Made by a program: the position numbers and the translations under genes. This document shows, piece after piece, positions 36,088 to 64,000 of a stretch of DNA of 64,000 nt. The number at the start of each line of letters is the position of its first letter. Positions within the stretch are counted from its first letter, which is position 1. The notes under the pieces are model-generated. The model saw nothing but the letters and a program-made list of their open reading frames with translations. It was not told where the DNA came from and made no database searches. Source of the stretch: Opitutaceae bacterium TAV5 (GTDB lineage: Bacteria; Verrucomicrobiota; Verrucomicrobiia; Opitutales; Opitutaceae); contig CP007053.1 of assembly GCA_000242935.3 (NCBI GenBank), positions 3,829,001 to 3,893,000 on the forward strand, read 5' to 3'.

Positions 36088-36099
36088 CTTCCTGTGACT

Positions 36100-36753
36100 A
36101 TGGATACAAAAAAATACATGCGATATAAAGGATTTACATTGATTGAACTATTGACGGTTATAGCTGTAATCGGAATTTTGGCAGCAATTATGATTCCGAC
36201 TGTAGGCGCCGTACGAAATTCAGCCCGAAAAGCGAAAACAAAAACTCAGTTTAGCCAATGGGGGGCTGCGTTTGAGATGTTCAAGCAAGAGTATGGCTAT
36301 TATCCCAATTTTTCCACCACTCCCACTACTGGAAATTATATTCTGGCCGACAATGCTGATGCAGAAAAATTTGCGGGAACATTAACAGGCAAGACTTTGA
36401 GCGGAAGTGGTACACCAACTGACGCTAATCTTAATGGCAATAAAAAGAAAATCAGCTTTTATTCCCTAAGTGATGCCGAACTTAGCTCAACAACAACTGC
36501 TAATGCGAAAATTCAAGATGCATTCGGAAATACAGAAATTGGCATCATTATTGATGTTACGGGTGATGGACGCATCAAGTTGGACGATATTAGTGGTTCA
36601 TTAACAGTTAATGCAAAGGATGGAGGCAGCTTTACCCCGACAAGCGGTGGAACTGATAGAGATATTCCGACCGATGGTGTTCGTGCTGGGGTGATTTTTT
36701 ATTCTGCAGGTAAAGACGGAAGTCCCAAGGGCGCTGTTATGAGTTGGAAGTAG
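36100..36753 (+). CDS. GspG-like pseudopilin, second copy
   Basis: A 217-residue protein from ATG 36100. The leader MDTKKYMRYKG is followed by FTLIELLTVIAVIGILAAIM, a classical Gly/Phe prepilin site. QFSQWGAAFEMFKQEYGYYP mirrors the GspG helix and the globular domain is Thr/Ser/Gly/Asp-rich, ending VRAGVIFYSAGKDGSPKGAV. It begins 12 bases after the preceding gene and is probably cotranscribed. It may form a heteropolymer with the first copy. Confidence 0.75.
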   Translation: MDTKKYMRYKGFTLIELLTVIAVIGILAAIMIPTVGAVRNSARKAKTKTQFSQWGAAFEMFKQEYGYYPNFSTTPTTGNYILADNADAEKFAGTLTGKTLSGSGTPTDANLNGNKKKISFYSLSDAELSSTTTANAKIQDAFGNTEIGIIIDVTGDGRIKLDDISGSLTVNAKDGGSFTPTSGGTDRDIPTDGVRAGVIFYSAGKDGSPKGAVMSWK

Positions 36754-36792
36754 ATACTAGGCACTCTAGGTCGGAGCAATGGATTAAATAAA

Positions 36793-37449
36793 ATGATTCT
36801 TACTAACTATACGAAAAACCGAGCTTTTACCTTGATTGAGCTTTTGGTCGTTATAGGGCTGATTGCCGTATTGGTTGGAGGAATCGGCATGGCTCTTGCG
36901 AAAGGGGGCGACCGCAGTGCCGCCCTGCAAGGAGGACAGGGATTGTTATCCAGTCTGCTATCCGGAGTGCGTGGCAGAGCGGCTTTAGCCCAAGAAGAAA
37001 CAGGTCTCTTTGTAGATTCGGACCCATCATCTACTGGTTTTCTGCAGGCGTTTCGAATTGCTGTGAAGTCCGGTTCCAACTGGGAGCCTGTTGGTGAACA
37101 AATAATGTTGCCTCAAGGAATTTTTCTGATTCCTCCGACGTCGGGTACTTTTACCGCTGCCCAAGTCGCACTTACCCCCCTTGGTGGCGGTTCATGGCCA
37201 GCAAGTCGCTACTCAACAGGTTTTGATGGATCCAGTGCCACACTGAATAATATCACTGGCACTTATAAAATGGTTTATTCACTCTCAGCGCGGGGGACTA
37301 CTGCAACAGGGGGGAAGCTCATCTTGGCGGCTGGTGAACGCACTGCAACAGGTATAAGGCTTCTTAACCCAGATTATATTCGCGGAGCAACTCTAAGTTC
37401 ATATGGCGTATTGACTCTTCTGACTGACTCAACGGCATTTGATAATTAA
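36793..37449 (+). CDS. Pseudopilin, Verru_Chthon cassette protein D-like
   Basis: A 218-residue protein. NRAFTLIELLVVIGLIAVLV is the prepilin site and helix, then GGIGMALAKGGDRSAALQGG QGLLSSLLSGVRGRAALAQ. This GspH-like N-terminus with a loop of small residues and the position two genes before a cassette C gene fit the Verru_Chthon cassette D family known from Verrucomicrobium and Chthoniobacter. The globular domain is a beta-sandwich. Family name from memory of the pattern and context. Confidence 0.65.
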   Translation: MILTNYTKNRAFTLIELLVVIGLIAVLVGGIGMALAKGGDRSAALQGGQGLLSSLLSGVRGRAALAQEETGLFVDSDPSSTGFLQAFRIAVKSGSNWEPVGEQIMLPQGIFLIPPTSGTFTAAQVALTPLGGGSWPASRYSTGFDGSSATLNNITGTYKMVYSLSARGTTATGGKLILAAGERTATGIRLLNPDYIRGATLSSYGVLTLLTDSTAFDN

Positions 37450-37453
37450 TAAT

Positions 37454-38050
37454 ATGATATTTGATTTTGTGTACTGTAATAAAGTATCTCGATCTAGGGC
37501 TTTTTCCTTGGTTGAGGTTGTCGTTGCTGTGGGTATTTTTGCTCTCGCTGTTGTCACTGTTATTGGATTGTTGGTTCCTATAACACAATCGGTTGCTGAT
37601 GTAAGGGATACCGATGATGCTACGCGGGTTGTCTCAACAATTCAAGCTGAGCTGCAAAGGTTGCCTTTTTTAGGAGCACAAAGCATACAAAACGCACTAA
37701 AGTTTGCCTCTGACGTGGCAGCGGATGATTCTAACGCCACCTATGATCCTTCAGCAGATAACAGTATCTTGTTTGCGAGTAGGGGGGGGGATAAAGTTGG
37801 ATTCTACAATGCCAGTTCTGTCTGGGATCCTGATTCAAGCCTGAGTTCCACTGAGGAGGATGCCTTGAAGTTTTTTGAAATAGTGCTTATTCGAAACGAG
37901 GCGATCTCTCGTCCTGTCGATGATAACGAGGCAGGTTACTTGGCTTTTACTCTTCGCTTACGCTGGCCGGCATTCAGGCCCGATGGCCAGCGTAATACAC
38001 AAAACGATCAGAAAAATGTATTGCTTGTGCCGATGGCAATTACCCGATGA
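37454..38050 (+). CDS. Pseudopilin, Verru_Chthon cassette protein B-like
   Basis: A 198-residue protein from ATG 37454, four bases after the previous stop; TTG 37439 would overlap that gene. SRAFSLVEVVVAVGIFALAV is a GspI-like N-terminus, then LVPITQSVADVRDTDDATRV and RVVSTIQAELQRLPF. Such a GspI-like member is cassette B in the Verru_Chthon set. The stop overlaps the next gene (ATGA), so translation is coupled. Confidence 0.7.
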   Translation: MIFDFVYCNKVSRSRAFSLVEVVVAVGIFALAVVTVIGLLVPITQSVADVRDTDDATRVVSTIQAELQRLPFLGAQSIQNALKFASDVAADDSNATYDPSADNSILFASRGGDKVGFYNASSVWDPDSSLSSTEEDALKFFEIVLIRNEAISRPVDDNEAGYLAFTLRLRWPAFRPDGQRNTQNDQKNVLLVPMAITR

Positions 38051-39168
38051 ATTTTACTGGTAACCTATATTCGCTTCGTGCTGGCCGATCTCAGGTGGTT
38101 AAAGGCTTTACCATCGTTGAGCTTCTTGTCGCTGTCGGTATCACCGCTTTACTTGTTGCATCGATGCTAATTGTTACGATCAATGTGATTAATGTGTGGG
38201 GCCGTACATCTGGATCTCTGGCTGCTGGAAATCAGGCACGGTTGATTCTGGATCAGATTACTCAGGATCTGCAAGCTGCCGTTTTTCAAAGGGATAATAA
38301 TGTTTGGTTGGCAGCAAGCATACAAGGTGCCCAAACAACAGCTGCAGGTGATTCAGCTTATAGCAAGGCTGATTGGACAGGTGGCACTAATTTGAAGCCC
38401 AATACGATTGACGTTGATCATGAATATGATCTTGCTAGTTGTAAATTTGGGCAGGCAGGTGTTTGGCTTCGATTTTTTACCATCCCTTCTGATGAAAATG
38501 ATGAGTTGACGGACGTGTCGGCGCCAAGAGCAATCGCTTATCAGATAATTCGTGTTGGATTAGGTACGGCTCCCAATATCCAATATACATATCAATTATT
38601 TCGTTCAGAGGTCTCGCCAATGGATTCTTCTGTGGCAGGTCGTTCAACTTTCGAGATAGGTTATGATCTTTTTACTGCAGATGTGAACGGATACAATGCA
38701 CAAGATGATGGTTGGTCATTGGTCAATCCACAGACGCTAGGAAATCCGAAAAAACGGAAGTCTAACGCAGGAAATATACGGATGCCTAATGCGCAGCAAT
38801 TGCTTGCTAACGATATTGTCGATTTTGGGATCCGATTTTACGAACCTGATTCATCGACACCTCCTAATCTGATTGAAATATTCCCTGTAGATCGTCGAGT
38901 TGGATCGGCTGCAACTAGAGGTTTATTGGCGGTGACAATGGATACTTCGAAAAATCAACCGACGTATGGGTATACTCCGGGAAATAGATCTTATGGTTAT
39001 CCAACGGTCGCCGAAGTAATGGTTAGAATTTTAACTGCGGAGGGAGCTAGGCTTCTGCAGGCTTATGAAGAGAACCATCTTCAGACTACAGACGATTGGT
39101 GGGGCATTGTTGAGAAAAATTCGCAAGTCTATACTCGTCGAATTGAGATCAAGGCTACGGCATTATGA
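38047..39168 (+). CDS. Pseudopilin, Verru_Chthon cassette protein C
   Basis: A 373-residue protein. KGFTIVELLVAVGITALLVA is the GspJ-like prepilin helix, followed by VWGRTSGSLAAGNQARLILD and QITQDLQAAVFQRDNNVWLA. The same order of blocks (QITQDLQ..., FGQAGVWLRFFT, VSAPRAIAYQI, FRSEVSP, STFEIGYDL, PNAQQLLANDIVDFGIRFYE, TVAEVMVRILTAEGARLL) is repeated in the solo gene at 50428-51576, so the two are paralogues. It overlaps both neighbours by ATGA. Confidence 0.8.
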   Translation: MNFTGNLYSLRAGRSQVVKGFTIVELLVAVGITALLVASMLIVTINVINVWGRTSGSLAAGNQARLILDQITQDLQAAVFQRDNNVWLAASIQGAQTTAAGDSAYSKADWTGGTNLKPNTIDVDHEYDLASCKFGQAGVWLRFFTIPSDENDELTDVSAPRAIAYQIIRVGLGTAPNIQYTYQLFRSEVSPMDSSVAGRSTFEIGYDLFTADVNGYNAQDDGWSLVNPQTLGNPKKRKSNAGNIRMPNAQQLLANDIVDFGIRFYEPDSSTPPNLIEIFPVDRRVGSAATRGLLAVTMDTSKNQPTYGYTPGNRSYGYPTVAEVMVRILTAEGARLLQAYEENHLQTTDDWWGIVEKNSQVYTRRIEIKATAL

Positions 39169-42023
39169 ACAAAATGAACGCATATCCTCATGACTCTCAT
39201 GTTCAGCTGCGATCCGACAGAGGATTCGCCTTATTGGTCACAATTGTACTGGTTGCGTTTCTGGTTCTCATCTTAGTCGCTTTGGCTACTTTCAGTCGCG
39301 TAGAAACGCAGGTCGCTGACAACTCGCAGCAGATAGCTAAAGCACGCGAAAATGCTATTATGGCTCTTAACATCGCTGTCGGGCAATTGCAGAAGCATGC
39401 GGGGCCTGATCGGCGTGCTACAGGACGAGGTGATCTCGTTAGCAATGTAGTCAAAGAGCGATTTATTACGGGAATCTGGGATGAAACTCCAACTAAAGAC
39501 GAACCACTCGTATGGCTTGTGAGCAAGGGTGAAGATCCAACGAACTCCGCCGTTAATGATGCGCTGACAGCTGTTTTAGCACCGGGAACTGGAACCGCCG
39601 CTTATGATGATACGGCAAGTGCACCGTGGGTTTTCCTTGTATGGGATAACAGTGTCGCTAACTCTGACTATCGAATCCGTCTCGAAAAGCAACCTATACG
39701 GGTACCTCCAAGTGCAGTCCCTGGCGCAGGATCTACTGGAAGTGATGTCATCATAGGGAATTACGCCTATTGGGTGAGTGATGAGGGAATCAAAGCCAGT
39801 GCAGCATTAAACGCTGGTACAAGCATTTCGTATAATAATGATGGTACGGGAAGTAGTGGACAGGGTGACAATTGGTCTGGGGCACCCAATGAAAAACGAA
39901 ATCGACTTGCTCAATTTGCGTTACCTAGAACTAGGCTTGATAGGACGAATCTATTTGGATCATCTTTTGATATATATGATAATAAATTGCCTGACGTTTT
40001 GCAGGGGCGGCAGCTTTTATTTATCTCCGGTGCTCCTACATTGACAGTATGGAAAGAGAAATTCCACGATGTGACAACCTTAAGCCAAGGGGTACTGGCA
40101 GATGTTTCGGCAACGACTACGGATGGACGGCTTAAAGAAGACTTATCCGATATTGCCAATCCTCGACTTCCAGCTCTCCTTCCGTTTCAGCAGGCCCGTG
40201 TAGCTCCATCAACTGGTTTTGTCGCAACGTATACCCCAAATCCAGATAGCCCTACTATTGGAGATAGGTACCCAGCCTATCCAGTATTGACTGAATTTGG
40301 TATCCGTTTCTGGTATTCGATTTCTGGAACGGATATTATGTTGAATTATATTATTGATGCTGAGCTATGGAATCCCTATGCGGCGGATGTTCAGCTTCCC
40401 GGTAGTGTTAATAAATTCCAGATGGAGATAACCAATTTACCGGGAAGTGTTGATCTGGTTGATGATTTAGGGACAGCATATCCAGGGGTCGGGCTTGGTA
40501 CTGTATTGCCATCTCCATTCGTTGTTGAAATTGATCCTTCATTGATTTGGACTGCCGGTGAAATTAAGCGTGTTTCAGGTTCCGCGGGGAGTCTGCTAGT
40601 TGCGGGAAGTAGTGGAACTCAGGATACTATAAGTACGACCGTTGCCGTGACGGGTACACCAACTGAAATATCTACTGTAAATAATATACCTGCCGTTAAT
40701 AACTTGGTGGTGGTGCTTCAGATGACTAGGGTAGCGGCCTCAACAGATGATATTCAGACATATGATCCTCAGATTGCATACTCTGCTGGAAATGGAATTA
40801 GCAATTCCAATGCGGCATCATTTGGCTATGGGTTTCAGCTGAATGAAGATCTCAGAGTATGGACAAGTGGAGATGGCAGCGTTTCTCCCCAAGCAGATCC
40901 TCGCCGCGGAACTTTACAAGGAACGGCCTATTATGAGCCTAATGCCACTGCGGTTTGGCAAAATGACCCTGCTGCCAATAATGCATCTTTAGCCCTTTCC
41001 ACCGAATTTACAGGAATTACTTCCCCAGATGTGATCGTGCTTTTTGATCTCCCTCGCCAAGAGATCACATCATTGGGAATGTTTGTTCATGCAAAGGAAA
41101 CTCTTCCATACGAATTAGGCAATACATGGGGGACAAATAATAATTATTATGATAGGTATTTTATTTCTACCGTTCCTCGGTTTGCGTCCACCGCAGAATG
41201 GAATCCTGAGAGTAATAAGCCGCTGCCTAATCGTTACATTAAGGTCCATCATCCTGAAAGCAGTGCCACGATTAGTCCCACAGATCTTCAGAATTATGAA
41301 AGGGCTGCGATGTATTTGTTGCAAACAGGCTCATTTAATATTAATTCTACATCTATTCAGGCTTGGGAAGCTATTTTAGGCTCCAAGCTCCTCGGCTGGG
41401 AACATGAAGGAGTTGCTTCTGGAGGTATTTCATTGGATAATGCGTTTTTCCGGTTACCCCATGGCGCACAACAGTTGACCAAACCACTTTTGGGATCTGC
41501 TACTGACCCGCTTGATGATGTTGACTCCATTAATAGCGGGGGACGGCAGTTGGAGGAAAACGAGATAGAGAGACTGGCAGCGGAAATCGTTAATGAGATA
41601 AAAATTCATACGGCATCGAACGGACCTTATCGAACATTAGCCCGATTTATTGATGATGGCGTTATTGAAAGGGCTATTGTAGCTGCAGGTATCAATAGTG
41701 CTCCTGCAAATGGCAGTCTCTCAACGAATTTTATGGGAACATCGGCTGCTCTGACTCAAGCAGATGTTGTGAACGCTATAGCACCGTTTATGACTCCGCG
41801 CACTGACACTTTTATGATCCGAGCTTACGGGGATGTTCGAAATCCTATGACGGATAGTATTGAGGGAAGAGCTTGGTGTGAGGCAGTGGTGCAGCGCCTG
41901 CCCGAGATGGTGGATTCGAGCCTTGATGCGTTGGAACCCAATCCCCCATCCGCTCCGTATTTTTATTTTGGCCGTAAGTTTAAAATAATTTCTTTCCGAT
42001 GGCTCACATTCGACGACTTATAA
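39165..42023 (+). CDS. Verru_Chthon cassette protein A (large pseudopilin-like, GspK-like)
   Basis: A 952-residue protein. RGFALLVTIVLVAFLVLILV is a type IV-pilin-like N-terminus of the PilX/GspK kind, followed by ALATFSRVETQVADNSQQIA KARENAIMALNIAVGQLQKH AGPDRRATGRGD. The body is a long beta-rich surface domain, with ESIEGRAWCEAVVQRLPEMV near the end, a feature I associate with cassette A. Translationally coupled to cassette C. Presumably a minor tip subunit that, with B, C and D, builds a short pilus or pseudopilus; substrate and role are unknown in the literature I can recall. Confidence 0.75.
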   Translation: MNKMNAYPHDSHVQLRSDRGFALLVTIVLVAFLVLILVALATFSRVETQVADNSQQIAKARENAIMALNIAVGQLQKHAGPDRRATGRGDLVSNVVKERFITGIWDETPTKDEPLVWLVSKGEDPTNSAVNDALTAVLAPGTGTAAYDDTASAPWVFLVWDNSVANSDYRIRLEKQPIRVPPSAVPGAGSTGSDVIIGNYAYWVSDEGIKASAALNAGTSISYNNDGTGSSGQGDNWSGAPNEKRNRLAQFALPRTRLDRTNLFGSSFDIYDNKLPDVLQGRQLLFISGAPTLTVWKEKFHDVTTLSQGVLADVSATTTDGRLKEDLSDIANPRLPALLPFQQARVAPSTGFVATYTPNPDSPTIGDRYPAYPVLTEFGIRFWYSISGTDIMLNYIIDAELWNPYAADVQLPGSVNKFQMEITNLPGSVDLVDDLGTAYPGVGLGTVLPSPFVVEIDPSLIWTAGEIKRVSGSAGSLLVAGSSGTQDTISTTVAVTGTPTEISTVNNIPAVNNLVVVLQMTRVAASTDDIQTYDPQIAYSAGNGISNSNAASFGYGFQLNEDLRVWTSGDGSVSPQADPRRGTLQGTAYYEPNATAVWQNDPAANNASLALSTEFTGITSPDVIVLFDLPRQEITSLGMFVHAKETLPYELGNTWGTNNNYYDRYFISTVPRFASTAEWNPESNKPLPNRYIKVHHPESSATISPTDLQNYERAAMYLLQTGSFNINSTSIQAWEAILGSKLLGWEHEGVASGGISLDNAFFRLPHGAQQLTKPLLGSATDPLDDVDSINSGGRQLEENEIERLAAEIVNEIKIHTASNGPYRTLARFIDDGVIERAIVAAGINSAPANGSLSTNFMGTSAALTQADVVNAIAPFMTPRTDTFMIRAYGDVRNPMTDSIEGRAWCEAVVQRLPEMVDSSLDALEPNPPSAPYFYFGRKFKIISFRWLTFDDL

Positions 42024-42778
42024 GTCTATTTGTTCTGTTTTTCTTCGGCGGTGAGAGGATTTTGATTTCTCAGCCGATTCCAGAGGATTCATCCAACCGG
42101 GCAGCATTTACCGTCCTAGCTTTACCCGGTGCGGCATCTCAGATGCCTGCGGAGCTTTATTATTTACATGGACCTTCTGATGGTCTGGTTCTGCGATTCA
42201 TGGAAAACCGACGTTCCGAAATGATCGCCCGTGCTTCTGCTGGCCCATTGGTATTTGGAACTCGAAATACGACAGGAACATTGGAAAAACCAACATTTAC
42301 TCGGGTGACAGAGGTTTCATGGCCACAGTCGGCTAAGAGAGCTCTTGTATTATTTGCTTACACCCCTGCCGTCGCTGGAACCACCGGGGCACAGGTCAAA
42401 GCCATTGCTATAGATGATTCCATTGACTCGTTCCCGTCACAGTCGGTAAAAATACTGAATTTTAGTGGTACTGCGTTATTGGCAAAAGTTGGAGATTTTG
42501 AAGGATTAATTACAACGGGTCCCTCTTCTGCAATTAAGTATCCAAAGGATAAGCTGGAAGCTGTTAAATCAGGGAAAATGGTACGTTTCCCTCTACTTCT
42601 CGGAACACGAAAAGATGGAGCTGCCACCAAAATTCTGTTTTCGGGTAATGTTGATGGATGGCCTGACTCGAGAACATTGGTCATGATTACTCCATCGACC
42701 AAAAATGGAAAACCAGGGGTGCAAGTAAGCTTTATAGTTGAAGCGATTGCTTCTGAGAAATCTGTTGCTCTAAAATAG
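41999..42778 (+). CDS. Secreted hypothetical protein of the cassette operon
   Basis: A 259-residue protein overlapping cassette A by 25 bases. A signal peptide (RRLISLFVLFFFGGERILIS) is followed by an all-beta pattern: FTVLALPGAASQMPAELYYL, LVLRFMENRRSEMIARASAG, VTEVSWPQSAKRALVLFAY and a C-terminal GKPGVQVSFIVEAIASEKSV. I do not recognise a family. Small exported proteins commonly end Verru_Chthon operons, and the same AT-rich composition suggests it belongs to this one. Its stop codon lies in the inverted repeat at 42776. Confidence 0.6.
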   Translation: MAHIRRLISLFVLFFFGGERILISQPIPEDSSNRAAFTVLALPGAASQMPAELYYLHGPSDGLVLRFMENRRSEMIARASAGPLVFGTRNTTGTLEKPTFTRVTEVSWPQSAKRALVLFAYTPAVAGTTGAQVKAIAIDDSIDSFPSQSVKILNFSGTALLAKVGDFEGLITTGPSSAIKYPKDKLEAVKSGKMVRFPLLLGTRKDGAATKILFSGNVDGWPDSRTLVMITPSTKNGKPGVQVSFIVEAIASEKSVALK

Positions 42779-42881
42779 TCGGTGCTGAAAAATACATCAA
42801 CCTATTAACTGATAGAATATTGATTTGATCGTCAAACCTCAACCTTGCCCGGCCTAAACCGAGGTTCTTCAGCACCGACTA
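42776..42881. repeat. 106-bp inverted-repeat element with AAAAT flanks
   Basis: TAGTCGGTGCTGAA (42776-42789) and TTCAGCACCGACTA (42868-42881) are perfect 14-bp inverted ends. AAAAT occurs at both outer sides (42772-42776 and 42881-42885). The interior has no gene. It may be a MITE or a long-loop terminator. The following ~400 bases to the IS element show no gene, only the start of REP-like units. Confidence 0.6.
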
Positions 42882-43249
42882 AAATAACAACAGACCGCAA
42901 AGAGCGCGGCCGGGAGGGGCAGGGGCTATGGACTTCGTGGCCTAGCGGTTCGCAAATACATGGATTTTTCCGTCTGCGCGCATAAGGCTTTCCTCAATGC
43001 CTCCAAATCATCCGTTTATTGTTCGCGGGCCGATCGGGCTTCCGCTCGCTAGGTAATCGGGGATTTCCTAGTATGTTTTTGTTTACCAACCTCACAACAA
43101 GGCTGGCAACAAATCTACGCCACCCGCTCCGGCTCGTCGCCCGGCAGCGCGCCGCCACCGTTGAGGCTATTCCTCGCTTCTCGTCTTCCGGCGGCCGGTA
43201 GATGGCCCAGCCCGTGGTTACGCAGATGGGGATGCCAAGGGGGTTGGGA

Positions 43250-43286: not shown

Positions 43287-44827
43287 GAATGGCGCTTAGA
43301 TAAGGGGGCTGGTCGTTATTTTTTACGTCTGGAAGCGGAGATGATCATGATATGTCTGGGACTGGTCATGAACTGGAAGTTTTTGGGTCTGCGTTTTTTT
43401 GTTCTGGGTTCGGCCCTGAGTGGGCGAAGAGGGACTGGGTCGGAAGCGATCTGGAGGGTGATGAGATGGATGAGGCGACGGTTTTTGCGAGGTTTGGCCG
43501 GCAGGAGCAGGGGGAGCCAGGAGCGCAGGGTGTCGATGGTGCCCTTGAAGCTGAGTCTTTCGATGTCAACATCATGAGTGATGGCCGTTTCGAGCATCAA
43601 TGCGCGAACCATGTTGTAGGCGATGGCCTGCATCCAGATCTCCTTTTCGACCATTTGGGGTGTCAGGCAGCGCAGGATATCGAGGCCGAGGGTGATTTTG
43701 ATGTCTTTGTAAAAAAGCTCGATCCGCCACCGGCGCATATACAGGGCAACCAGTTCGTGGTCCGGGTATTGTGCCGGGTCGAGCAAGGTAGTGGCCAGGG
43801 CGATCTGGCGGGTCCGGAATCCGGGAACCCCGACTTGAAAACGGACGATCCGCAGGACCAGTTCGCGGGGCAGTTCCCGCCACAGACACCGTTCCCATGT
43901 TTCCGGACGCTGGGGTTTTTTCCATCTGCTGATGCCGGCGTTATCCCTGCGGGCCTGGTGCAGGCGAAAAACGACCGGGACGCCCTTGCGTGCAAACAGG
44001 GCGATCAGTCCCCATCCGCAGAACCCCCGGTCAGCGAGCAGGACTTCGCCCTTGTGGACCCATCCGACCAGTTGCCGGGCCAGGGATATCTCGTGGTTTT
44101 TCCATGCGCTGGTCGCAAATTTGACCAGCCTGCCGGTTCCCAGACAAAACACTCCTACCAGCTGGGCGACCGGAAAACCGCATCCGGGCTTCTGCTGTCC
44201 GGCATAAGGCCATTGCCGGCGGTTTTGTTCTGTGTCCGGCATGCTCATCCCCGTGCCATCGATCACCTTGACCCGGTGGCCCCGCCAAAGGTAAGCGTCA
44301 CGGTGGCGTTGCTTTATCCACAGACTGACCGAAGCGAATCCCTTGCGCAATACCTCCAGAGGCAAGCGTCTGCGTGCCTGGCAATAACCGCCGGTCGCCC
44401 CGTCGGGAACACCCAGGCCTCTGCCCGAGTACCATGCCTGAACCCGCCTCACCGCTTCCCGGCACGAGCACGAACGGTCCAGCACTTGCGACAAAAACGT
44501 CCAGAATGTCACCCGGGTGCTGAACACCCGGTCCCGGCAACCTTGCCCCTTCGAGAACACATCGGCCGTCAAAAAACGTCCGCCAATCTCGCTGAGCCCT
44601 CCCAACTGCCCCGTCGCCAGCGACAGCCTGCCGGCCGCTCTCCGTGAACGGCTGCCACACAAATGATGCGAAAAACCCGGCAAATATAACGTCTTGGTTT
44701 TCAAACCATTATGATTAACCAAAAGAAGGCACGTTTCAACTTGAATATCAAGAAATTATGAAAACACACTCCTCTCCTTCATCCCCCCTTCGCTTCAACG
44801 GTATCCCCCCTTATCTAAGCGCCATTC
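43287..44827. mobile_element. IS4-family insertion sequence, 1541 bp
   Basis: Perfect 22-bp terminal inverted repeats (GAATGGCGCTTAGATAAG... at 43287-43308 and its complement at 44806-44827) enclose one transposase gene. An 11-bp target duplication flanks the element, as expected for IS4 (10-13 bp). The element is intact and looks recent because ends and duplication are perfect. It sits inside a REP unit. Confidence 0.9.
43316..44722 (-). CDS. IS4-family transposase
   Basis: A 468-residue DDE transposase. The catalytic residues are visible: Asp155 in VKVIDGTGMSMPD, Asp231 in VLLADRGFCGWG, and the YREK signature Y328, R331, E335, K342 in YMRRWRIELFYKDIK with exact 2-3-6 spacing. The N-terminal FWTFLSQVLDRSCSCREAVR is the typical IS4 DUF4372-like helix region. 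It should cut and rejoin the 22-bp ends. The frame is complete, so the enzyme may be active. Confidence 0.92.
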   Translation of the reverse strand: MVNHNGLKTKTLYLPGFSHHLCGSRSRRAAGRLSLATGQLGGLSEIGGRFLTADVFSKGQGCRDRVFSTRVTFWTFLSQVLDRSCSCREAVRRVQAWYSGRGLGVPDGATGGYCQARRRLPLEVLRKGFASVSLWIKQRHRDAYLWRGHRVKVIDGTGMSMPDTEQNRRQWPYAGQQKPGCGFPVAQLVGVFCLGTGRLVKFATSAWKNHEISLARQLVGWVHKGEVLLADRGFCGWGLIALFARKGVPVVFRLHQARRDNAGISRWKKPQRPETWERCLWRELPRELVLRIVRFQVGVPGFRTRQIALATTLLDPAQYPDHELVALYMRRWRIELFYKDIKITLGLDILRCLTPQMVEKEIWMQAIAYNMVRALMLETAITHDVDIERLSFKGTIDTLRSWLPLLLPAKPRKNRRLIHLITLQIASDPVPLRPLRAEPRTKKRRPKNFQFMTSPRHIMIISASRRKK

Positions 44828-55479: not shown

Positions 55480-55553
55480 GCGGCTGTAGTTTAGTGGTAA
55501 AACTCCACTCTTCCAAAGTGGTCTCGAGAGTTCGATTCTCTCCAGCCGCACCA
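55480..55553 (+). tRNA. tRNA-Gly (TCC), probable attachment target of the element to its right
   Basis: Acceptor GCGGCTG/CAGCCGC, anticodon stem CCACT/AGTGG with loop CTTCCAA (anticodon TCC), T-arm GAGAGTTCGATTCTCTC. CCA is encoded at 55551-55553. The viral-type gene set starts 90 bases after it; use as an attachment site is inference. Confidence 0.93.
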
Positions 55554-55621: not shown

Positions 55622-55646
55622 TCGCTGCTGATGGAGGGCGGGCTTG

Positions 55647-55901
55647 ATGAACGCCGCCCAACTCCAAGGCGGCAAAGCCGTTTGCCCGCGTCCGCGCCGC
55701 TCCTATACGCCGAAGGAAGCGTCCGCGCTTCTGGCGGAATGGGGCATTTTCCGAAGCGAAAAATGGTTCTGGAAAGCCTGTAAGAATAAACGCGTGCGCA
55801 CGCTGCCGGCGTTTTCGTCCGGCCGTTATCAAGTCCCGGAAGAAGAGCTTTTCCGGCTGGCCGGGATCAAGGACCAGGCGGAACCGGAGGGAGCGTCATG
55901 A
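55647..55901 (+). CDS. Small HTH (MerR/excisionase-like) DNA-binding protein
   Basis: An 84-residue protein from ATG 55647 with GGAGGG nine bases upstream. RRSYTPKEASALLAEWGIFR SEKWFWKACKNKRVRTLPAF SSGRYQVPEEELFRLAG has the order of a winged helix-turn-helix excisionase-type protein (helix-turn-helix, then a wing with GRY-V-EEEL). It overlaps the initiator start (ATGA). It may control excision, replication or early expression. Confidence 0.6.
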   Translation: MNAAQLQGGKAVCPRPRRSYTPKEASALLAEWGIFRSEKWFWKACKNKRVRTLPAFSSGRYQVPEEELFRLAGIKDQAEPEGAS

Positions 55902-57733
55902 GCGCCCGGGACGCCGCCCGCGAGGCGAAATCAAGGGCGATTCTCGCCCGAAATACTGCCAGCGAAACGGCATTTCTGGCCGAAAGCGCCGGGCGTTTGG
56001 CATGGCTGAAACCGGCCTCCGAAACGCTCACACGGTGTATTATCGCAGAGGCAACGGAACGCGAACAGGCGTTTATCGACGCCGCCGAGCGTCACGACGA
56101 ATTGGCCGGTTTCGACGTAAACGCCCATTTGGCGCAGGCGATTGCCGCCGCCCGAAACACGAAACGGCACACGGCCCGGCACATTTCCCGCGCTCCGGAA
56201 GTGGGCATTTCCGGGACCGGGGCTCTTTACGACATCTCCGAATCGGATGAAACCGATTACGTCGAGACGCTAGAGGAAACGCGTTCTTTCAAGTGGTATG
56301 CCGGGGTTGAGAAGACGTTTTTCTCGCTGATGGACGGCGAGACCGGCGCACTGGTAAGCCCGGAAAAATACGAAAAACGTCTGGCCGAAAAAGAGCGTTT
56401 GCTGGATCAGGCTTACACCATCGTCAACGGCCTGCGCGATGGCGGGATTGAGGCGATGCGAGACGACAAGTGGAAGCTATGGCGTTTCCATGTGCACAGC
56501 GAACATGTGCAGGAATTGCCCTCTTTCCGCCGCATCATGCTAAACCCCTACGTGGCGGCGATGGCCCGCGCAGGGAAGCTGGCGGCGCTGGAGCACTTCC
56601 TCTCGCTGTTCGATCCCTGGCGTTACCGATTCTGGACATTTACAACCGGAGAGCGCTGCAAGGTCGATACGCTCCGCGCCCGGATTCGCTGGCTGCATCG
56701 CCGCATTTCCAAGCTGAATGGCCATTTCAAAAAATGGGGCTTCCCGCTGGAAATCGTGTTTCGCGCCACCGAATTTGGCACACTCGAAGACGGCAAACGC
56801 GATGCGAAGGGCATCCGAAACGGTGGCGAAATCACCCGAAAAGGCCGGCATACTTTTTACCATCCGCATGCCCATTGCGTCGTATTGGTGCATCCAAACG
56901 CCCCGTTTATGTCGGAGGCGAAATGGGAAATGGTCATCAATTCGGTCCACGGTTTTTGGAAACGGGCGGGCGAAAAACTCCATTGGGATGCGGGCAAATA
57001 CATTCAAAACGCCCGCGAGTGCTGCAAGTATGCCACGAAGCCGGGCGACATGGTCGAACTGGCCCGTTCGCGGCCGAGTGAGCTTGCGGCGCTTTACGAA
57101 GCCACCCGGAAAATGCGGCTAGTAGAGCCGATGGGCATGTTGCGGGAGCGGATCAAAGCCCGCGCCGCTGCCGGCCTCATGCTGGCCCGCGACACGACAT
57201 CCGGCGACGGCGGAATCTGGTTGGAAGTCCGCGATCCGGATGCCAACCCGACGACGAAACCGTTTCCGGGTGAAAGCGAGGCCGCCACCCGCCAGCGCCG
57301 GCTGACACTGAAGGCGCTGCGCGAGGAAATGCGCCGCTCGCACTTCCGGGACGCCGAAGACCAGCCGGACGTGTGCACGGTCGTGAAACGGTGCATGCCG
57401 ACAGTCGGCCCGGATCGGGTGAAAGAGCCGACCGTCATGGTCATGGGCAACGTGTTTGACCTCGCGGCCGTTCGCAATCATCCGCTCGTTAGGCGCATAA
57501 GACACTATACTAAAGAGAGTTATATGGGTGGCCTTCGGCTTGCCCGTCTCGAAGACGGGGAGCGTTCCGGCGGCGGATGCCTGGATCAGAGTCCACACGG
57601 TCACATCAACTGTCCCGCCGATGCGTGGACACCGCCGAATCCCGATTTTGAACCGGATTTTTATGCAAATCCGGGAAGTTTCGAGACCGCCTGGCCGGTC
57701 TCGGAGGCAATCGAAACCACCGCCAACACATGA
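55898..57733 (+). CDS. rep: HUH rolling-circle replication initiator
   Basis: A 611-residue endonuclease. Motif 1 is RYRFWTFTTGERC (243-253); motif 2 is YHPHAHCVVLVHP with metal ligands H324 and H326; motif 3 is ARECCKYATKPGD with nucleophile Tyr378 and Lys381. Single-Tyr motif 3 in CCKYxxKPGD resembles Rep_1 plasmid initiators (pC194/pUB110 type) more than the two-Tyr phage gpA type. It nicks the origin and starts rolling-circle copying. The ~230-residue N-terminus and the 230-residue C-terminus are extra and unassigned. Longest gene of the element. Confidence 0.85.
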   Translation: MSARDAAREAKSRAILARNTASETAFLAESAGRLAWLKPASETLTRCIIAEATEREQAFIDAAERHDELAGFDVNAHLAQAIAAARNTKRHTARHISRAPEVGISGTGALYDISESDETDYVETLEETRSFKWYAGVEKTFFSLMDGETGALVSPEKYEKRLAEKERLLDQAYTIVNGLRDGGIEAMRDDKWKLWRFHVHSEHVQELPSFRRIMLNPYVAAMARAGKLAALEHFLSLFDPWRYRFWTFTTGERCKVDTLRARIRWLHRRISKLNGHFKKWGFPLEIVFRATEFGTLEDGKRDAKGIRNGGEITRKGRHTFYHPHAHCVVLVHPNAPFMSEAKWEMVINSVHGFWKRAGEKLHWDAGKYIQNARECCKYATKPGDMVELARSRPSELAALYEATRKMRLVEPMGMLRERIKARAAAGLMLARDTTSGDGGIWLEVRDPDANPTTKPFPGESEAATRQRRLTLKALREEMRRSHFRDAEDQPDVCTVVKRCMPTVGPDRVKEPTVMVMGNVFDLAAVRNHPLVRRIRHYTKESYMGGLRLARLEDGERSGGGCLDQSPHGHINCPADAWTPPNPDFEPDFYANPGSFETAWPVSEAIETTANT

Positions 57734-58083
57734 AAAACGAGACCCAAGGAATCCCCACGTCCGCCCCTGCGCCCCGCCCGCCGCTGAAACGCACACCTGC
57801 GCTGTGGATTCGGCCGAATCCGGACACGGCCGGCCGTTGCACAGTGTTCCGCGTCGATGTGCTTCGCACGTCGGAAGACGGCTTCGCCGTGGTCGAAGTC
57901 GTCGAAAACAGACAGCACACGCTGAAACACGTGAACATCAGCGATCTCGCCAGCACGCCCGAAAAGGCGATGGAGCGAATCCTTTCCCGACTTTCTGCCA
58001 TGCTCGCCGGACCGGCGTTAACCGCAATGCCTGGGATGAAGGCGAGCACGGCGGACAACCTTTCCCCGGAGACCGCACCATGA
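57730..58083 (+). CDS. Element protein of unknown function
   Basis: A 117-residue protein. A Pro-rich start (IPTSAPAPRPPLKRTPALWI) is followed by a beta-rich part (CTVFRVDVLRTSEDGFAVVE VVENRQHTLKHVNI) and a helix. It overlaps both neighbours by ATGA. No family recognised. Confidence 0.55.
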   Translation: MKNETQGIPTSAPAPRPPLKRTPALWIRPNPDTAGRCTVFRVDVLRTSEDGFAVVEVVENRQHTLKHVNISDLASTPEKAMERILSRLSAMLAGPALTAMPGMKASTADNLSPETAP

Positions 58084-59071: not shown

Positions 59072-59812
59072 ATGAAAAACGAACCCGAAAACACACCGCC
59101 TGCCAGCCAGGCGAAAACGGTGGCATCCTCCGAATTGCTCGACACGGAAATGCCGCCTGTAACCGGCGAGGAAACGCCCTCTGCCACGCCACCCGCGCAA
59201 ACACCCGCATCCGATGCGGCCGGCGAAGTCGATTCACTGAATCGCCCGTTTGACCCGACCAAATTCCGGCACGAAAAAGACAGCCTCGGCCGCTGGAAAA
59301 ATCTTTTTGCCGGCCGAAAGGGCAAAAAGGGCAAAACGCCCGGCACTGAGACGCAACCGCCGCCACCCGCCAGCTTCATTCCGGACGTGGACCCGTCTCC
59401 GTTGCCGGATGACAGTGACGATGACGCCGCCGATGATTCCACGGCGTCTGACACCCCGGCCGATGACGGCGCGCTCGCGCCGGAAGACGCGGCCGAAGTG
59501 TTCGCCAACGCCGTTTACACGGCCACTGGATTCGCCACTGGCGAACACGAGGAAGCGCAGCCGCCGCCGGGCGCCCATCGCAACCTGAAACGCACCATCG
59601 CCGCGAAGGTGCGCGCCTCCGATGTGCAGATCGTGGGGTGGGTCGCCGTGGCGTTTGCCGTGCTGGCTTACCTGCTGACCGTGTTTCGCAAGCCGAAAAC
59701 CGCAGCACAGGTGCGCGCCTGGATGAAATGCGAGCCGGCCGAAAAAACCGTTTCGCCCGCCGCGCCGCCGCGCCAGGTCGAACCAATCATTTCACAACAG
59801 GATTTCCTGTAA
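59072..59812 (+). CDS. Single-pass membrane protein with acidic linker
   Basis: A 246-residue protein. Residues 50-75 have NRPFDPTKFRHEKDSLGRWK followed by a basic patch (FAGRKGKKGK); a strongly acidic, Pro/Ala-rich linker spans ~85-155; one helix (IVGWVAVAFAVLAYLLTVF) lies near 187-206. A FDPxxFRxxxDxxGRW block recurs, as far as I recall, in proteins of tailless prophages, but I cannot verify it. Probably a membrane component of the virion or of its assembly. Confidence 0.55.
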   Translation: MKNEPENTPPASQAKTVASSELLDTEMPPVTGEETPSATPPAQTPASDAAGEVDSLNRPFDPTKFRHEKDSLGRWKNLFAGRKGKKGKTPGTETQPPPPASFIPDVDPSPLPDDSDDDAADDSTASDTPADDGALAPEDAAEVFANAVYTATGFATGEHEEAQPPPGAHRNLKRTIAAKVRASDVQIVGWVAVAFAVLAYLLTVFRKPKTAAQVRAWMKCEPAEKTVSPAAPPRQVEPIISQQDFL

Positions 59813-59835: not shown

Positions 59836-60207
59836 ATGAGCAACAAAAACACCGAAAAGAAACACGATGCGGCCGCACCGGCCGACTCCACCAAAACGGC
59901 CGGCACGCCTCCGAATGTCACGTTTGTTGACGTGGAGGTTTTGCCACCCGTCACGCAAATCCTGATCACGCCGGAACCCGCCTGGCGGATGTTCTCGCGC
60001 CATGCCCTCGCGCTGATCCTGCCTGGCGCGTTTCTGGCGCTGGTCGGCTTCATCATCGCCGTGGTACGGCCGGATGCTACCTGGCTGCTGTTGTTGCTGC
60101 CGTTCCTCCTGGTCGTGGCGCTGCTTTTCCGGCCGCGCAATCCGGAACCGGATGCAGTCCGCCCCGGCCTCGTCAATCGCGCCTTGCAATCGCTCTTCCG
60201 CAAGTAA
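59836..60207 (+). CDS. Two-helix membrane protein upstream of the packaging ATPase
   Basis: A 123-residue protein from ATG 59836. A soluble N-terminus (~60 residues) is followed by two helices, ALALILPGAFLALVGFIIAV and TWLLLLLPFLLVVALLF, and a basic tail. Its stop overlaps the ATPase ATG (TAATG). Candidate structural membrane protein or packaging-vertex protein. Confidence 0.6.
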   Translation: MSNKNTEKKHDAAAPADSTKTAGTPPNVTFVDVEVLPPVTQILITPEPAWRMFSRHALALILPGAFLALVGFIIAVVRPDATWLLLLLPFLLVVALLFRPRNPEPDAVRPGLVNRALQSLFRK

Positions 60208-60725
60208 TGGACGATATTCACCGCGCAATCATCGGCGGCACGGGTTCAGGCAAAACCTTTGTCGCCCAACAATGGGCCGCCGATTTCCGCCGCGCTGGCA
60301 TCGGCACGCTTGTGATGCACAAGCCTCGCGAGCCGTGGCCGGCGGAATGCGCGTCATGGCAGACACCCGATCCGGAACGCCTGCAAGCCATGTTCTGGCG
60401 GGCAAAGCGTTGTGCCGTCTTCATGGAGTTGGCGGATGCGCACGTGAACAAATGGGATGACCGCTTCCATCAGTGTTTTTCCGAAGGAAGGCACGAAGGA
60501 CACCGGTGCTTTTTCATCAGCCAGTACGGACCGCAGGTGCATCCGCTGATCCGCGCCAATTGTTCATCCCTCGCCCTGTTCGCCACCACAAAAAAGGCGG
60601 CAAAAGCGTGGGCGGAAGAGTTCAACGATGAAGGTCTGATGGGGGCGGTGACGCTCCCGCCTCACATGTTTTATTTCAAGCCCTCACGCTACCAACCCGC
60701 CGTTTTGCGAAAGGTGAGAGCATGA
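60207..60725 (+). CDS. Genome-packaging-type ATPase (FtsK/HerA, PM2 P9-like)
   Basis: A 172-residue P-loop ATPase. Walker A is IIGGTGSGKTF (10-17); AVFMELADA near 70-78 is the Walker B strand with Glu74; CFFISQYGPQVHPLIRANCS supplies the sensor Gln106 and Arg116 typical of FtsK/HerA-type packaging enzymes. This is the short form expected for PM2 P9 or FLiP-type viruses, distinct from the terminases of tailed phages. It would pump genome DNA into the capsid. Filamentous-phage Zot proteins also have a Walker fold but carry a C-terminal transmembrane part, absent here. Confidence 0.75.
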   Translation: MDDIHRAIIGGTGSGKTFVAQQWAADFRRAGIGTLVMHKPREPWPAECASWQTPDPERLQAMFWRAKRCAVFMELADAHVNKWDDRFHQCFSEGRHEGHRCFFISQYGPQVHPLIRANCSSLALFATTKKAAKAWAEEFNDEGLMGAVTLPPHMFYFKPSRYQPAVLRKVRA

Positions 60726-61072
60726 ACACGGTGACAATCTCTCTTCCCCCGCCCTCATCACGCTGCTGTGGCGCTCCGGTTTTGTATGTGACGATGGGAA
60801 ATGCTCCGATGGAAAAACAATGCAGCCAATGCAGGAAATTTTACCCGATCGGACAAAAACCGGAATACATTCAACCTCGCATTGATTGCGCGTTGGAAAT
60901 GAGCGAAGCGGTGGTCAAGTCGCTGAAGCTGGACCCGACGAATATGGCTGAACCCGTGGCGAGGTTGAAGGCGGCAATCGCCGCTCTTGGCCCATTTGTG
61001 GAGCGTGACAGTCCGGAGCGTGACGGTGCCGGCGCCGTCACATGCCGGCGTGTCACGCCGGCTAAACTCTAA
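60722..61072 (+). CDS. Small putative zinc-ribbon protein
   Basis: A 116-residue protein. Two cysteine knuckles (SRCCGAPV and KQCSQCRKFYP, 20 residues apart) suggest a zinc ribbon; the rest is helical (MSEAVVKSLKLDPTNMAEPV ARLKAAIAALG). Overlaps the ATPase stop (ATGA). Function unknown. Confidence 0.55.
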   Translation: MNTVTISLPPPSSRCCGAPVLYVTMGNAPMEKQCSQCRKFYPIGQKPEYIQPRIDCALEMSEAVVKSLKLDPTNMAEPVARLKAAIAALGPFVERDSPERDGAGAVTCRRVTPAKL

Positions 61073-61079
61073 CGCGGCA

Positions 61080-61844
61080 GTGTCACACGAAAACCTGGTA
61101 CTATCGGTGTTTCCCGGCGCGGACCTGCTCGGACGCGGATTCGAGGCGGAGGGGTTTTGCGTGGTGCGCGGGCCTGACCTCGTGTGGGGCGGCGACGTGC
61201 GGGATTTCCACCCTCCGCCCGGAGCGTTTGCTGGCGTGATCGGCGGACCGCCGTGTCAGGATTTTTCGCGGGCGCGGCGTTGTCCCCCGACCGGGAACGG
61301 CGTCGCCATGTTACACGAATTCTCCCGCGTGGTGTACGAGGCGCGGCCGGATTGGTGGCTGATGGAAAACGTGCCGGGCGTGGATCATCTCATGGTGGAA
61401 GGGTATTCCGTCCAGCGGTTCAACCTGAACGCATCGGAATGCGGATGCCGGCAAAACCGGCTGCGGACGTTTCATTTCGGAACGTGTGACGGCTCGATGG
61501 CCGTTTGCGATCGAGCCGTCACGTTTCGGCACCTAGAGCGGACTTGCCTTGCGTCGGAAGCGTCCCGGCCGGATCGGCGCGGATGGGCGGATTTTTGCGA
61601 ATTGCAGGGCCTGCCGCGAGATTTCGACCTGCCGGGGCTGTCGGTATCGGCCAAATACCGGGCCGTGGGCAACGGCGTGCCGGTGCCGATGGCTCGCGTG
61701 ATTGCGAGGGCGGTGCGCGCCCGCGGACAGTCACGTTTTGTCCGCTTGTGCGCGTGCGGTTGCGGCCGTCCGCTGTCCATTCGGCAAAAGTGCGCCACAC
61801 CCGCTTGTCGAAAACGCCTGGAGCGCGCCAGGCGCGCCGCCTGA
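61080..61844 (+). CDS. C5-cytosine DNA methyltransferase
   Basis: A 254-residue enzyme from GTG 61080; the frame opens earlier (ATG 60987), but that part only shadows the previous gene. Motif I LSVFPGADLLGRGFE; motif IV VIGGPPCQDFSRA with catalytic Cys59; motif VI MENVPG; motif VIII QNRLRTFHF; motif X AVGNGVPVPMARVIAR. The target-recognition region between VIII and IX is unusually short. The C-terminus CACGCGRPLSIRQKCATPAC adds a zinc-finger-like cluster. It methylates cytosine, possibly to protect the element DNA from host restriction. Confidence 0.85.
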   Translation: MSHENLVLSVFPGADLLGRGFEAEGFCVVRGPDLVWGGDVRDFHPPPGAFAGVIGGPPCQDFSRARRCPPTGNGVAMLHEFSRVVYEARPDWWLMENVPGVDHLMVEGYSVQRFNLNASECGCRQNRLRTFHFGTCDGSMAVCDRAVTFRHLERTCLASEASRPDRRGWADFCELQGLPRDFDLPGLSVSAKYRAVGNGVPVPMARVIARAVRARGQSRFVRLCACGCGRPLSIRQKCATPACRKRLERARRAA

Positions 61845-62021: not shown

Positions 62022-62180
62022 ATGATCAAGAAAATCACCTCCACAGTCACGGCCGCACTCAAATCCGGCCAGTTCTGGGCCGGCTTCGCGGCCGGCATCG
62101 TCGTAGGCGTCGCCTACCGCGGGAAAATCCCCGCCGTCATCACCACCAACGCCAGCAAGCTCCCCGGCGCGAGCGCCTGA
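62022..62180 (+). CDS. Small one-helix membrane protein
   Basis: A 52-residue protein from ATG 62022. SGQFWAGFAAGIVVGVAYRG is a glycine-zipper-rich transmembrane helix, with a basic N-terminus (MIKKITSTVTAALK). It precedes the capsid gene by 47 bases. Small proteins of this kind populate the inner membrane of PM2-like virions. Confidence 0.6.
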   Translation: MIKKITSTVTAALKSGQFWAGFAAGIVVGVAYRGKIPAVITTNASKLPGASA

Positions 62181-62227: not shown

Positions 62228-63043
62228 ATGGCTCTCATCGTAAATCCCATCCTCGGCATCGAAGGCGTGACGGCTGGCGGCAATGCAACCGGCTCCCTCC
62301 GGGTCGGCCCGCGTTATCACACCCTCGTCTTTTTTACCTACCTGAACGGGGCGCTTGTCGCCGCCGATTCGGTCATCGGCCGCGTCCGCCTGATGGTGAA
62401 CAAAAAGGACATCCGCTCCCTGTTCGCTGCCGAAATCCTCAAAATCAACGCGTTCAACAAGCATCCGGACACAGCCGGCGCGCTCTCCATCCATTTTGCG
62501 GAGCCGTGGCAGACGGACGTTGACGCGATGATCCGTACCGCCTGGGACACGACCGGCGAACAGTCCTTCACGTTCAGCCTCGAACTCAAAACGCAGGCAG
62601 AACCTACCGACATTGTGCGGATCGAAGCCATCCAAGTCTACGACAACGGCCATCTTTTCTCCGCTGATGGAAAGACGCTGGTGAAGTTCATCATGCGCCA
62701 GCTTCGCACGACCTACAACGCCGGCGCGGGTCAGTACGACATCACGGACAAGTATGTCGGCAACCGCATCGCTCGTCTGTTTTTCGACGGTCCTTCGAAT
62801 ATCACCGATCTCGAAATCGTCGCGGACAATCTCAAGATTCACGACGCCACCAGGGTCGAAAACAACACCCTGCTTGACCGCTACGGCATGGACCCGACGC
62901 AATTCAAATATGCGTACGTGGCGGACATCATCGGCCGGACCGAATGGCTGATGGCGAGCGAAACGCTCAACCTGCAACTGGAGTCCGCTGCCGGCCAGAC
63001 CATCACGGTCATCGACGAATCCCTGACGGGCAGTTTCGCCTGA
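62228..63043 (+). CDS. PM2 P2-like double-jelly-roll major capsid protein
   Basis: A 271-residue protein, against 269 for PM2 P2. The N-terminal half (GGNATGSLRVGPRYHTLVFF, VIGRVRLMVNKKDIRSLFAA, EILKINAFNKHPDTAGALSI HFAEPW) has the order I know from the viral coat P2 N-terminal domain: (x)GxxATxxLxxGxRYHxIxL, then VNGKxIRxxxAxEhxxIN. The second half (VRIEAIQVYDNGHLFSADGK..., NTLLDRYGMDPTQFKYAYVA DIIGRTEWLMASETLNLQLE) is a second beta-sandwich. The strong spacing before it and its upstream inverted repeat fit high expression. This is the main support for the tailless-virus reading. Confidence 0.75.
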   Translation: MALIVNPILGIEGVTAGGNATGSLRVGPRYHTLVFFTYLNGALVAADSVIGRVRLMVNKKDIRSLFAAEILKINAFNKHPDTAGALSIHFAEPWQTDVDAMIRTAWDTTGEQSFTFSLELKTQAEPTDIVRIEAIQVYDNGHLFSADGKTLVKFIMRQLRTTYNAGAGQYDITDKYVGNRIARLFFDGPSNITDLEIVADNLKIHDATRVENNTLLDRYGMDPTQFKYAYVADIIGRTEWLMASETLNLQLESAAGQTITVIDESLTGSFA

Positions 63044-63151: not shown

Positions 63152-63448
63152 ATGGCTACTTCTTCCGGGGCGGATGCCTCAACTTCCGGTTTTTTTTCCA
63201 ACCTGTTTTCCGGTGTCCTCAATACCGGAACGCAAATCGCGACCACTCTTGTCCAGGGCAAGGTTGACCAGAAAGCGGCCGAAAACGCCGCGAAGCTCGC
63301 CGCCACCCAGGCAGCGGCCGGAACATCGCAGGCCGCAACGCCTGCGACCGGGACCGGCTCCAAGCTGTCGCCCGGCTACTGGATCGCCTTTGTGGCGGTC
63401 GGCGTCGTGGCGTTGATCTCCATCGTTCTAATCGCCCGCCGTCGCTGA
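63152..63448 (+). CDS. Small one-helix membrane protein, candidate virion component
   Basis: A 98-residue protein. A Ser/Thr/Ala-rich soluble region with NLFSGVLNTGTQIATTLVQG is followed by one C-terminal helix (YWIAFVAVGVVALISIVLIA) and RRR. The order resembles small capsid-associated membrane proteins of tailless viruses. Confidence 0.6.
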   Translation: MATSSGADASTSGFFSNLFSGVLNTGTQIATTLVQGKVDQKAAENAAKLAATQAAAGTSQAATPATGTGSKLSPGYWIAFVAVGVVALISIVLIARRR

Positions 63449-63453: not shown

Positions 63454-63750
63454 ATGTTACCAGCTATCGCAGGAATTGCGTCCTCATTATTCGGAGGCGG
63501 GGACGCGGCCGCTCCCGGCAACGTCTTGGGCGGGAGTATCAATATCGGCAGCAAGGTCGTAGGATCGGGCAAGGCCACGACAACACAGGATGTGCCTGCC
63601 GAGACAGCGGCCGCGACGGCCGCTGTCAACTGGTCTGTGTTGGCGGTACAGATCGGCATCGCCCTGGCTGCGCTGGTAGCTGCCGGCATGCTGCTGTTTG
63701 CACTCCTCCGCGGACCGACTCCCTCCCGCTCCCGCAAAAAGAAAGGCTGA
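63454..63750 (+). CDS. Small one-helix membrane protein, candidate virion component
   Basis: A 98-residue protein starting LPAIAGIASSLFGGGDAAAP. One C-terminal helix (VQIGIALAALVAAGMLLFAL) and a basic end (SRSRKKKG). GGSINIGSKVVGSGKATTTQ in the middle suggests a beta-hairpin. It begins six bases after the preceding gene and resembles it, so the two may be paralogues. Confidence 0.6.
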   Translation: MLPAIAGIASSLFGGGDAAAPGNVLGGSINIGSKVVGSGKATTTQDVPAETAAATAAVNWSVLAVQIGIALAALVAAGMLLFALLRGPTPSRSRKKKG

Positions 63751-63752: not shown

Positions 63753-64000
63753 ATGGGACTCTTTTCGTCATCGAAATCGGACGCGTCAACGAAGGTCACT
63801 GACCAGAGCAACAACGTTGCGGATGGCGCTCTCGGCCTCGCTGCCAGCGGCAAGGGTGCCAGTGCGGCCAATGCACAGGATCAGGCTGTATCGGTGTCGG
63901 GGTCGAAAAACACCGTCGATCAGAGCGTAAGCCTGACGGACAATTCCGGGAGCATTCAGGGGCTCAAGGGCAACAACAACACCATCGTCATGCAGACGAC
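63753..64000 (+). CDS. Low-complexity element protein, cut by the window edge
   Basis: At least 82 codons from ATG 63753, open to the end. It is rich in Ser, Asn, Asp, Gly and Thr (SSSKSDASTKVTDQSNNVAD, GSKNTVDQSVSLTDNSGSIQ GLKGNNNTIV) and lacks a helix in the visible part. The repetition of TVDQSxSLTDNS-like segments suggests a beta-solenoid or stalk; a spike or fibre role (like PM2 P1) is a guess. Confidence 0.5.
   Translation, partial: MGLFSSSKSDASTKVTDQSNNVADGALGLAASGKGASAANAQDQAVSVSGSKNTVDQSVSLTDNSGSIQGLKGNNNTIVMQT

Follow-up and report, generated by a model that had tools for sequence, protein, structure and literature searches.

The described systems closest to the locus analysed here belong to the order Vinavirales, whose cultured members include the Pseudoalteromonas phage PM2 of the Corticoviridae and autolykiviruses such as Vibrio phage 1.249.A. 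Divergent prophages of this order are also known from Verrucomicrobia, where Yutin et al. 2022 reported eight of them (PMC9502842); they were described as 'possibly degenerate', since known lysins and regulators were missing, and were excluded from the core-gene count. The mechanism of integration was left unclear for the Vinavirales prophages except HGV-2, which has IS630 transposases (PMC9502842). The ICTV has since created the families Mestraviridae, Asemoviridae and Parnassusviridae on the basis of nine shared signature genes.

Here we analyse a window of 64,000 nucleotides from the chromosome of Opitutaceae bacterium TAV5 (G000:C1:3829001-3893000), close to the right end of which a divergent double-jelly-roll capsid protein had been predicted from the DNA letters. 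The gene lies in an 18.9 kb prophage with an exact 30-bp repeat of the 3' end of a tRNA-Gly gene at both borders. Taking the profile matches, gene order and structural model together, its product is almost certainly the major capsid protein (MCP) of a temperate, tailless, membrane-containing virus of the Vinavirales, of the PM2/autolykivirus type. As Vinavirales prophages have been reported from Verrucomicrobia (PMC9502842), this is a capsid protein of an already known kind, and the element may itself be among those eight. The analysis adds an element with defined borders, apparently largely complete, that has an integrase and a tRNA att site, and a direct profile-based test that places both halves of the capsid protein in the P2 family.

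Capsid gene and family membership

62228..63043, plus strand: predicted major capsid protein, double jelly roll, P2 family (Pfam, PHROG, profile comparison, model)

The frame opens with an ATG at 62228, closes with a stop ending at 63043 and encodes 271 aa with no internal stops; in agreement with the original prediction, its product is close in length to PM2 P2, which has 269 aa (AF155037, gene 5523-6332). When the surrounding 4 kb were shuffled 200 times, a stop-to-stop frame of at least 271 codons arose in 6 cases, and thus frame length says little by itself in such G+C-rich DNA. The gene is instead taken to be real because of its homologies, the 34-40% identity of its product to the MCPs of three other Opitutaceae elements, and its G+C content by codon position (0.57/0.40/0.77), a coding pattern on the plus strand like that of the neighbouring genes. 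This pattern is reversed in an overlapping 308-aa antisense frame, which was rejected as a real gene.

Two curated Pfam profiles match the one chain, each at about twice its cut-off of 25 bits: P2_N at residues 11-127 (E 1.5e-14, 54.3 bits) and P2_C at residues 156-266 (E 6e-13, 49.2 bits). The assignment of the N-terminal half to P2_N is thereby upheld, while the accompanying view that no clear similarity extends to the C-terminal half was wrong, because Pfam recognises both halves. In addition, PHROG 8536 ('major head protein') covers residues 11-227 (E 2.7e-10). Direct identity to known capsid proteins is low, only about 17-18% to PM2 P2 and 25% to the MCP of 1.249.A, and a tblastn search of 50,697 phage records with the single capsid sequence returned the autolykivirus 1.249.A as its sole match, at E 0.7. 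Comparison of profiles gives a far clearer relationship: a profile of the four Opitutaceae MCPs aligns with an autolykivirus/asemovirus MCP profile over columns 1-268 (hhalign, probability 99%, E 3.5e-18) and with PM2 P2 at E 1e-5. The one PDB chain matched by a five-sequence capsid profile is 9t9v, a 'Double jelly roll capsid protein' (E 1.9e-5). Scans of viral contigs with the proteins P0001, L005 and L007 gave no matches, nor did a plasmid search.

Predicted fold of the capsid protein

A first structural model, built from three Opitutaceae sequences, was weak (pLDDT 51.6) and was replaced by an AlphaFold2 model from 13 sequences (pLDDT 80.7, pTM 0.82), which leans on the autolykivirus MCPs, since these are contained in its alignment and were absent from that of the first. 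Even with the weaker three-sequence model, Foldseek placed PM2 P2 at the top (E 2.7e-11), and all 50 of the 50 matches listed were double-jelly-roll capsid or scaffold proteins. In the 13-sequence model, one beta domain spans about residues 11-137, with a helix inserted at 67-76, and a second spans about 152-270, with a helix inserted at 209-218; profiles and model both predict two jelly rolls in one chain. The best solved match of the model is PM2 P2 (TM 0.81, E 9e-18), which superposes over the full length (Z 27.4, rmsd 2.5 Å, 253 of 271 residues). Weaker matches include STIV (Z 18.8), PR772 and PRD1 (18.1 and 17.6), FLiP (13.6) and phiCjT23 (13.4). The comparison with PM2 P2 and FLiP that had been proposed as a check therefore comes out clearly in favour of PM2 P2, and neither of the outcomes named beforehand as refuting the prediction, a single sandwich or a best match to a non-viral family, was seen.

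The model also aligns with cellular proteins, the DUF2961 structures 4kq7 and 8ah3 (both Z 12.3), and this family is present in the PVC group (PMC8812541), so that the capsid-like protein might be conceived of as a double-jelly-roll carbohydrate enzyme of the DUF2961/GH172 type, common in bacteria. Against this, PM2 P2 is the better structural match by 15 Z units and Pfam gives P2_N and P2_C only, with no match to DUF2961; on these two counts a cellular origin was ruled out. The neighbours, too, are phage genes, among them a packaging ATPase, a Rep, a spike fibre and an integrase, whereas DUF2961 genes are reported to have no virus genes beside them (PMC8812541). We accordingly regard the probability of a cellular enzyme as very low and retain the reading as a viral capsid protein.

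Boundaries and gene content of the prophage

The features that define the element, given in window coordinates unless stated otherwise, are as follows.

55480..55553, plus strand: tRNA-Gly(TCC), integration target (ARAGORN)
55524..55553, plus strand: attL, 30-bp exact repeat TCGAGAGTTCGATTCTCTCCAGCCGCACCA, equal to the tRNA-Gly 3' end
55644..55901, plus strand: 85-aa small protein adjoining Rep, kept in TAV2_C8 (57%) and G063 (39%)
55898..57733, plus strand: 611-aa rolling-circle replication initiator, Rep_1-like, HxH motif in 'FYHPHAHCVVL'
57730..58083, plus strand: 117-aa conserved protein, 40-42% identity in both TAV2 elements
59072..59812, plus strand: 246-aa protein, gp h-like by position, upstream of the ATPase, one TM at 187-205
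59836..60207, plus strand: small protein immediately upstream of the ATPase, two membrane helices
60207..60725, plus strand: 172-aa packaging ATPase, P9-like, Walker A GGTGSGKT, PHROG 2666 terminase
60722..61072, plus strand: 116-aa CxxC protein (ORF only)
61080..61844, plus strand: C5-cytosine DNA methyltransferase, cargo (Pfam DNA_methylase, E 4e-21)
62022..62180, plus strand: short hydrophobic peptide, encoded between ATPase and MCP; position and hydrophobicity are P7-like
63152..63448, plus strand: 98-aa protein, P3-like by position, C-terminal membrane helix (TM 77-95)
63454..63750, plus strand: 98-aa protein, P8-like by position, C-terminal membrane helix (TM 67-85)
63753..64000, plus strand: 323-aa structural protein, gp j/P10-like, running past the window to 64724 (continued coordinates)
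just inside the right repeat, minus strand: 366-aa tyrosine recombinase (Phage_integrase, E 2.4e-8)
G000:C1:3903380-3903409: attR, outside the window, 18,856 bp downstream of attL

From left to right the element thus carries the 85-aa gene, Rep, the 117-aa gene, membrane proteins, ATPase, methyltransferase, P7-like peptide, MCP and P3/P8-like proteins, followed by the gp j-like, penton-like, spike-fibre and tail-fibre-like genes, a set of small genes and, at the right end, the integrase.

The 30-bp att repeat has only these two copies in the genome. In Geminisphaera colitermitum TAV2 it has a single copy, at the tRNA-Gly gene; as the shared flank is only about 124 bp, TAV2 offers an unoccupied tRNA-Gly, and a syntenic empty att site, tried as an interpretation, was rejected. 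An integrase 78% identical to that of the element is encoded in TAV2 (L049; G001:C52:19136-20227) on a contig without a P2_N match, and the integrase may therefore also serve other elements. Elsewhere in the window, positions 36000-43000 have a G+C content of about 45%, against about 64% around them, and hold what appears by eye to be a pseudopilin/prepilin-type gene cluster, after which comes a gene that by eye is transposase-like (43316-44722, minus strand).

Among the left-hand genes, the 611-aa initiator matches Pfam Rep_1 at E 5.3e-8 with 33.1 bits, just under the cut-off of 33.2, and is 36-52% identical to the Reps of the TAV2 and G063 elements. The adjoining 85-aa protein is possibly a DNA-binding or excision factor, and the 246-aa protein has homologues in TAV2_C34, TAV2_C8 and G063. 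The ATPase is, on sequence comparison, the best link to cultured viruses: that of autolykivirus 1.249.A is 39% identical to it (E 5e-21), and PM2 P9 aligns with the ATPase family over 70 columns (hhalign, probability 95%). The methyltransferase, whose GTG start was placed by reference to the homologue in TAV2_C8 (L015), is 79% identical to that homologue, whereas the capsid proteins of the two elements share only 38%; no counterpart was found in the stretch of TAV2_C34 examined. We read this as a recent exchange of a cargo gene. A perfect 19-bp sequence, GCCGGCGTGTCACGCCGGC, with the inverted-repeat arms GCCGGCGTG/CACGCCGGC, has two copies in the element, one just before the methyltransferase start (window 61044-61062) and one in the right part, outside the window (G000:C1:3899870-3899888); GTGAC repeats surround both, and it is perhaps a regulatory or terminator site.

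The P7-, P3-, P8- and gp h-like labels rest on position, hydrophobicity and membrane helices, the small proteins being too short for homology; the relatives have a protein in the same position as the P3-like one. The 323-aa protein is 33-39% identical to proteins of both TAV2 elements, via which it is linked transitively to PM2 gp j, the latter matching the same-position G063 protein at E 2e-6. The family of the 188-aa penton-like protein matches autolykivirus NVP1249A_17 (E 7e-7), while its comparison with PM2 P1 is insignificant (probability 7%). Directly after the penton-like gene, a 428-aa protein contains the head-spike fibre domain NF048003 (E 1.3e-27), and the right part of the element continues with a 404-aa tail-fibre-like protein (PHROG 4176) and the small conserved genes. 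One of the proteins there, very basic and of 62 aa (G000:C1:3898903-3899091; L002 15904-16092), is 84% identical in both TAV2 elements, a conservation far above that of the capsid proteins, and is a candidate DNA-binding virion protein. A 173-aa protein (G000:C1:3899000-3899521; L002 16001-16522) just reaches the Pfam DUF4258 cut-off at 25.0 bits.

Comparison with described viruses

The element resembles PM2 in having an MCP of near-equal length with two jelly rolls, P2_N and P2_C, and in the gene order Rep - gp h - P9 - P7 - P2 - P3 - P8 - gp j - spike. It differs in size (18.9 kb against 10.1 kb), in possessing an integrase with att sites, a methyltransferase, and separate penton-like and spike-fibre genes, in an initiator of Rep_1-like type for which no similarity to PM2 P12 was detected, and in an MCP that does not group with those of PM2 and Cr39582 in the MCP tree, which sets it apart from the Corticoviridae. 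The autolykivirus 1.249.A is the closest cultured relative by ATPase and shares the penton-like protein; it carries an annotated DNA polymerase B, whereas a Rep and an integrase are encoded here, and the MCP of this element branches apart from the autolykivirus MCPs. Features typical of Vinavirales that are found here are an MCP and a P9-type ATPase in one module, with the ATPase upstream, and, by the transitive link, a gp j/P10-like protein. Gene comparison shows a Vinavirales morphogenesis gene order inside a prophage flanked by tRNA-Gly att repeats.

The HUH-type, Rep_1-like initiator also brings to mind an ssDNA virus of the FLiP/finnlakevirus type, since FLiP and phiCjT23 (Finnlakeviridae) combine a double-jelly-roll fold with rolling-circle replication known from the literature, and the FLiP MCP aligns with the model. 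Both sequence profile and fold are, however, far closer to PM2 P2, the finnlakevirus matches reaching Z 13.4-13.6 only, and a packaging ATPase is present here, while FLiP has none (PMC5894146). The ATPase and the Z scores led us to rule out such a virus, which we hold to be very improbable.

For a virus of the PM2/autolykivirus type, and by analogy with PM2, three copies of the MCP would form a pseudo-hexagonal capsomer, and such capsomers would make up an icosahedral shell; the lipid vesicle inside it would be held by the P7-, P3- and P8-like membrane proteins. Rep would copy a circular dsDNA by rolling circle, the ATPase would pack the dsDNA at the expense of ATP, and the 188-aa penton-like protein would form receptor-binding vertices with the 428-aa spike fibre. 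The tyrosine integrase would recombine attP with the 3' end of tRNA-Gly.

Relatives and evolutionary position

The element is rare: counting the present genome, P2_N matches above the cut-off turned up in 4 of 189 related genomes and in 3 of 388 sampled from the whole phylum. A further P2_N match in G018 (L008) was under the cut-off, lay within an HlyD-type membrane fusion protein and was discarded. TAV2 harbours two related elements (TAV2_C34 and TAV2_C8; L014/L015), another Opitutaceae genome, G063, has one, and G166, of another family in the same order, has one distant relative. The order Rep - membrane protein - ATPase - MCP - gp j-like - penton-like - fibre is common to TAV2_C34, TAV2_C8, G063 and this element. 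The TAV2 and G063 elements differ in that their MCP loci have no adjoining integrase, and a search for clear att repeats at them found none. Those of TAV2_C34 and G063 (L010, L012), from different genera, adjoin the same host gene (67% identical), by eye 4-alpha-glucanotransferase-like; as neither a tRNA nor a clear att repeat was found there, a second integration site may exist.

In a maximum-likelihood tree of MCPs, which was built from sequences other than those of Parnassusviridae and Vinavirales clade A, the four Opitutaceae MCPs form one branch (support 98/95) apart from Corticoviridae, Autolykiviridae, Asemoviridae and Mestraviridae. G166 joins the four on one side of a branch at 91/93, a placement made unsure by its long branch. 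The suggestion that the capsid protein could represent a new lineage thus stands as regards the separate, supported branch and gives way in that this branch lies inside the known Vinavirales, of which Verrucomicrobia prophages were already reported (PMC9502842). The Opitutaceae branch could be distant enough in its MCPs to rank as a further family.

The clade A Verrucomicrobia prophages of Yutin et al. 2022 are like this element in host phylum, prophage state and divergent MCP, and also in having no recognised lysin or PM2 regulators; here, scans with Pfam and PHROG recognised neither lysins nor PM2-type regulators among the element proteins scanned. Integration was left unclear in that study outside HGV-2, whereas this element has a tyrosine integrase and a tRNA-Gly att site. 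The missing lysin and regulators, and the published view of Verrucomicrobia vinaviruses as possibly degenerate (PMC9502842), would fit an inactive, decaying remnant with a real capsid gene that no longer makes virus. Yet the genes for morphogenesis, replication and integration have open frames and stand in the conserved order, the att repeats are exact, and the order is kept in relatives whose proteins are 26-55% identical, pointing to selection; if the cell wall of the host is unusual, the lysin needed may also go unrecognised. Decay is thus unlikely, if still a serious alternative to an active prophage. More tentatively, as a proposition falling a little short of even, the Opitutaceae elements may be intact temperate vinaviruses of a lineage at family rank that has yet to be described, distinguished by a genome that at 18.9 kb exceeds any cultured vinavirus compared, by integration at tRNA-Gly through a tyrosine recombinase, and by a lysin outside all known families.

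Implications

The virus order is known, but its Opitutaceae branch, from which nothing has been cultured, has received hardly any study. For this element, the tyrosine integrase and tRNA-Gly att site point to a concrete integration mechanism, where most Vinavirales had been left unclear (PMC9502842), and the idea of the group as only degenerate is weakened. Very few phages have been cultured from the Verrucomicrobiota; here this phylum gains a clearly delimited example, a tailless membrane phage closely related to elements in a cultivated genus, whose induction and isolation are directly testable.
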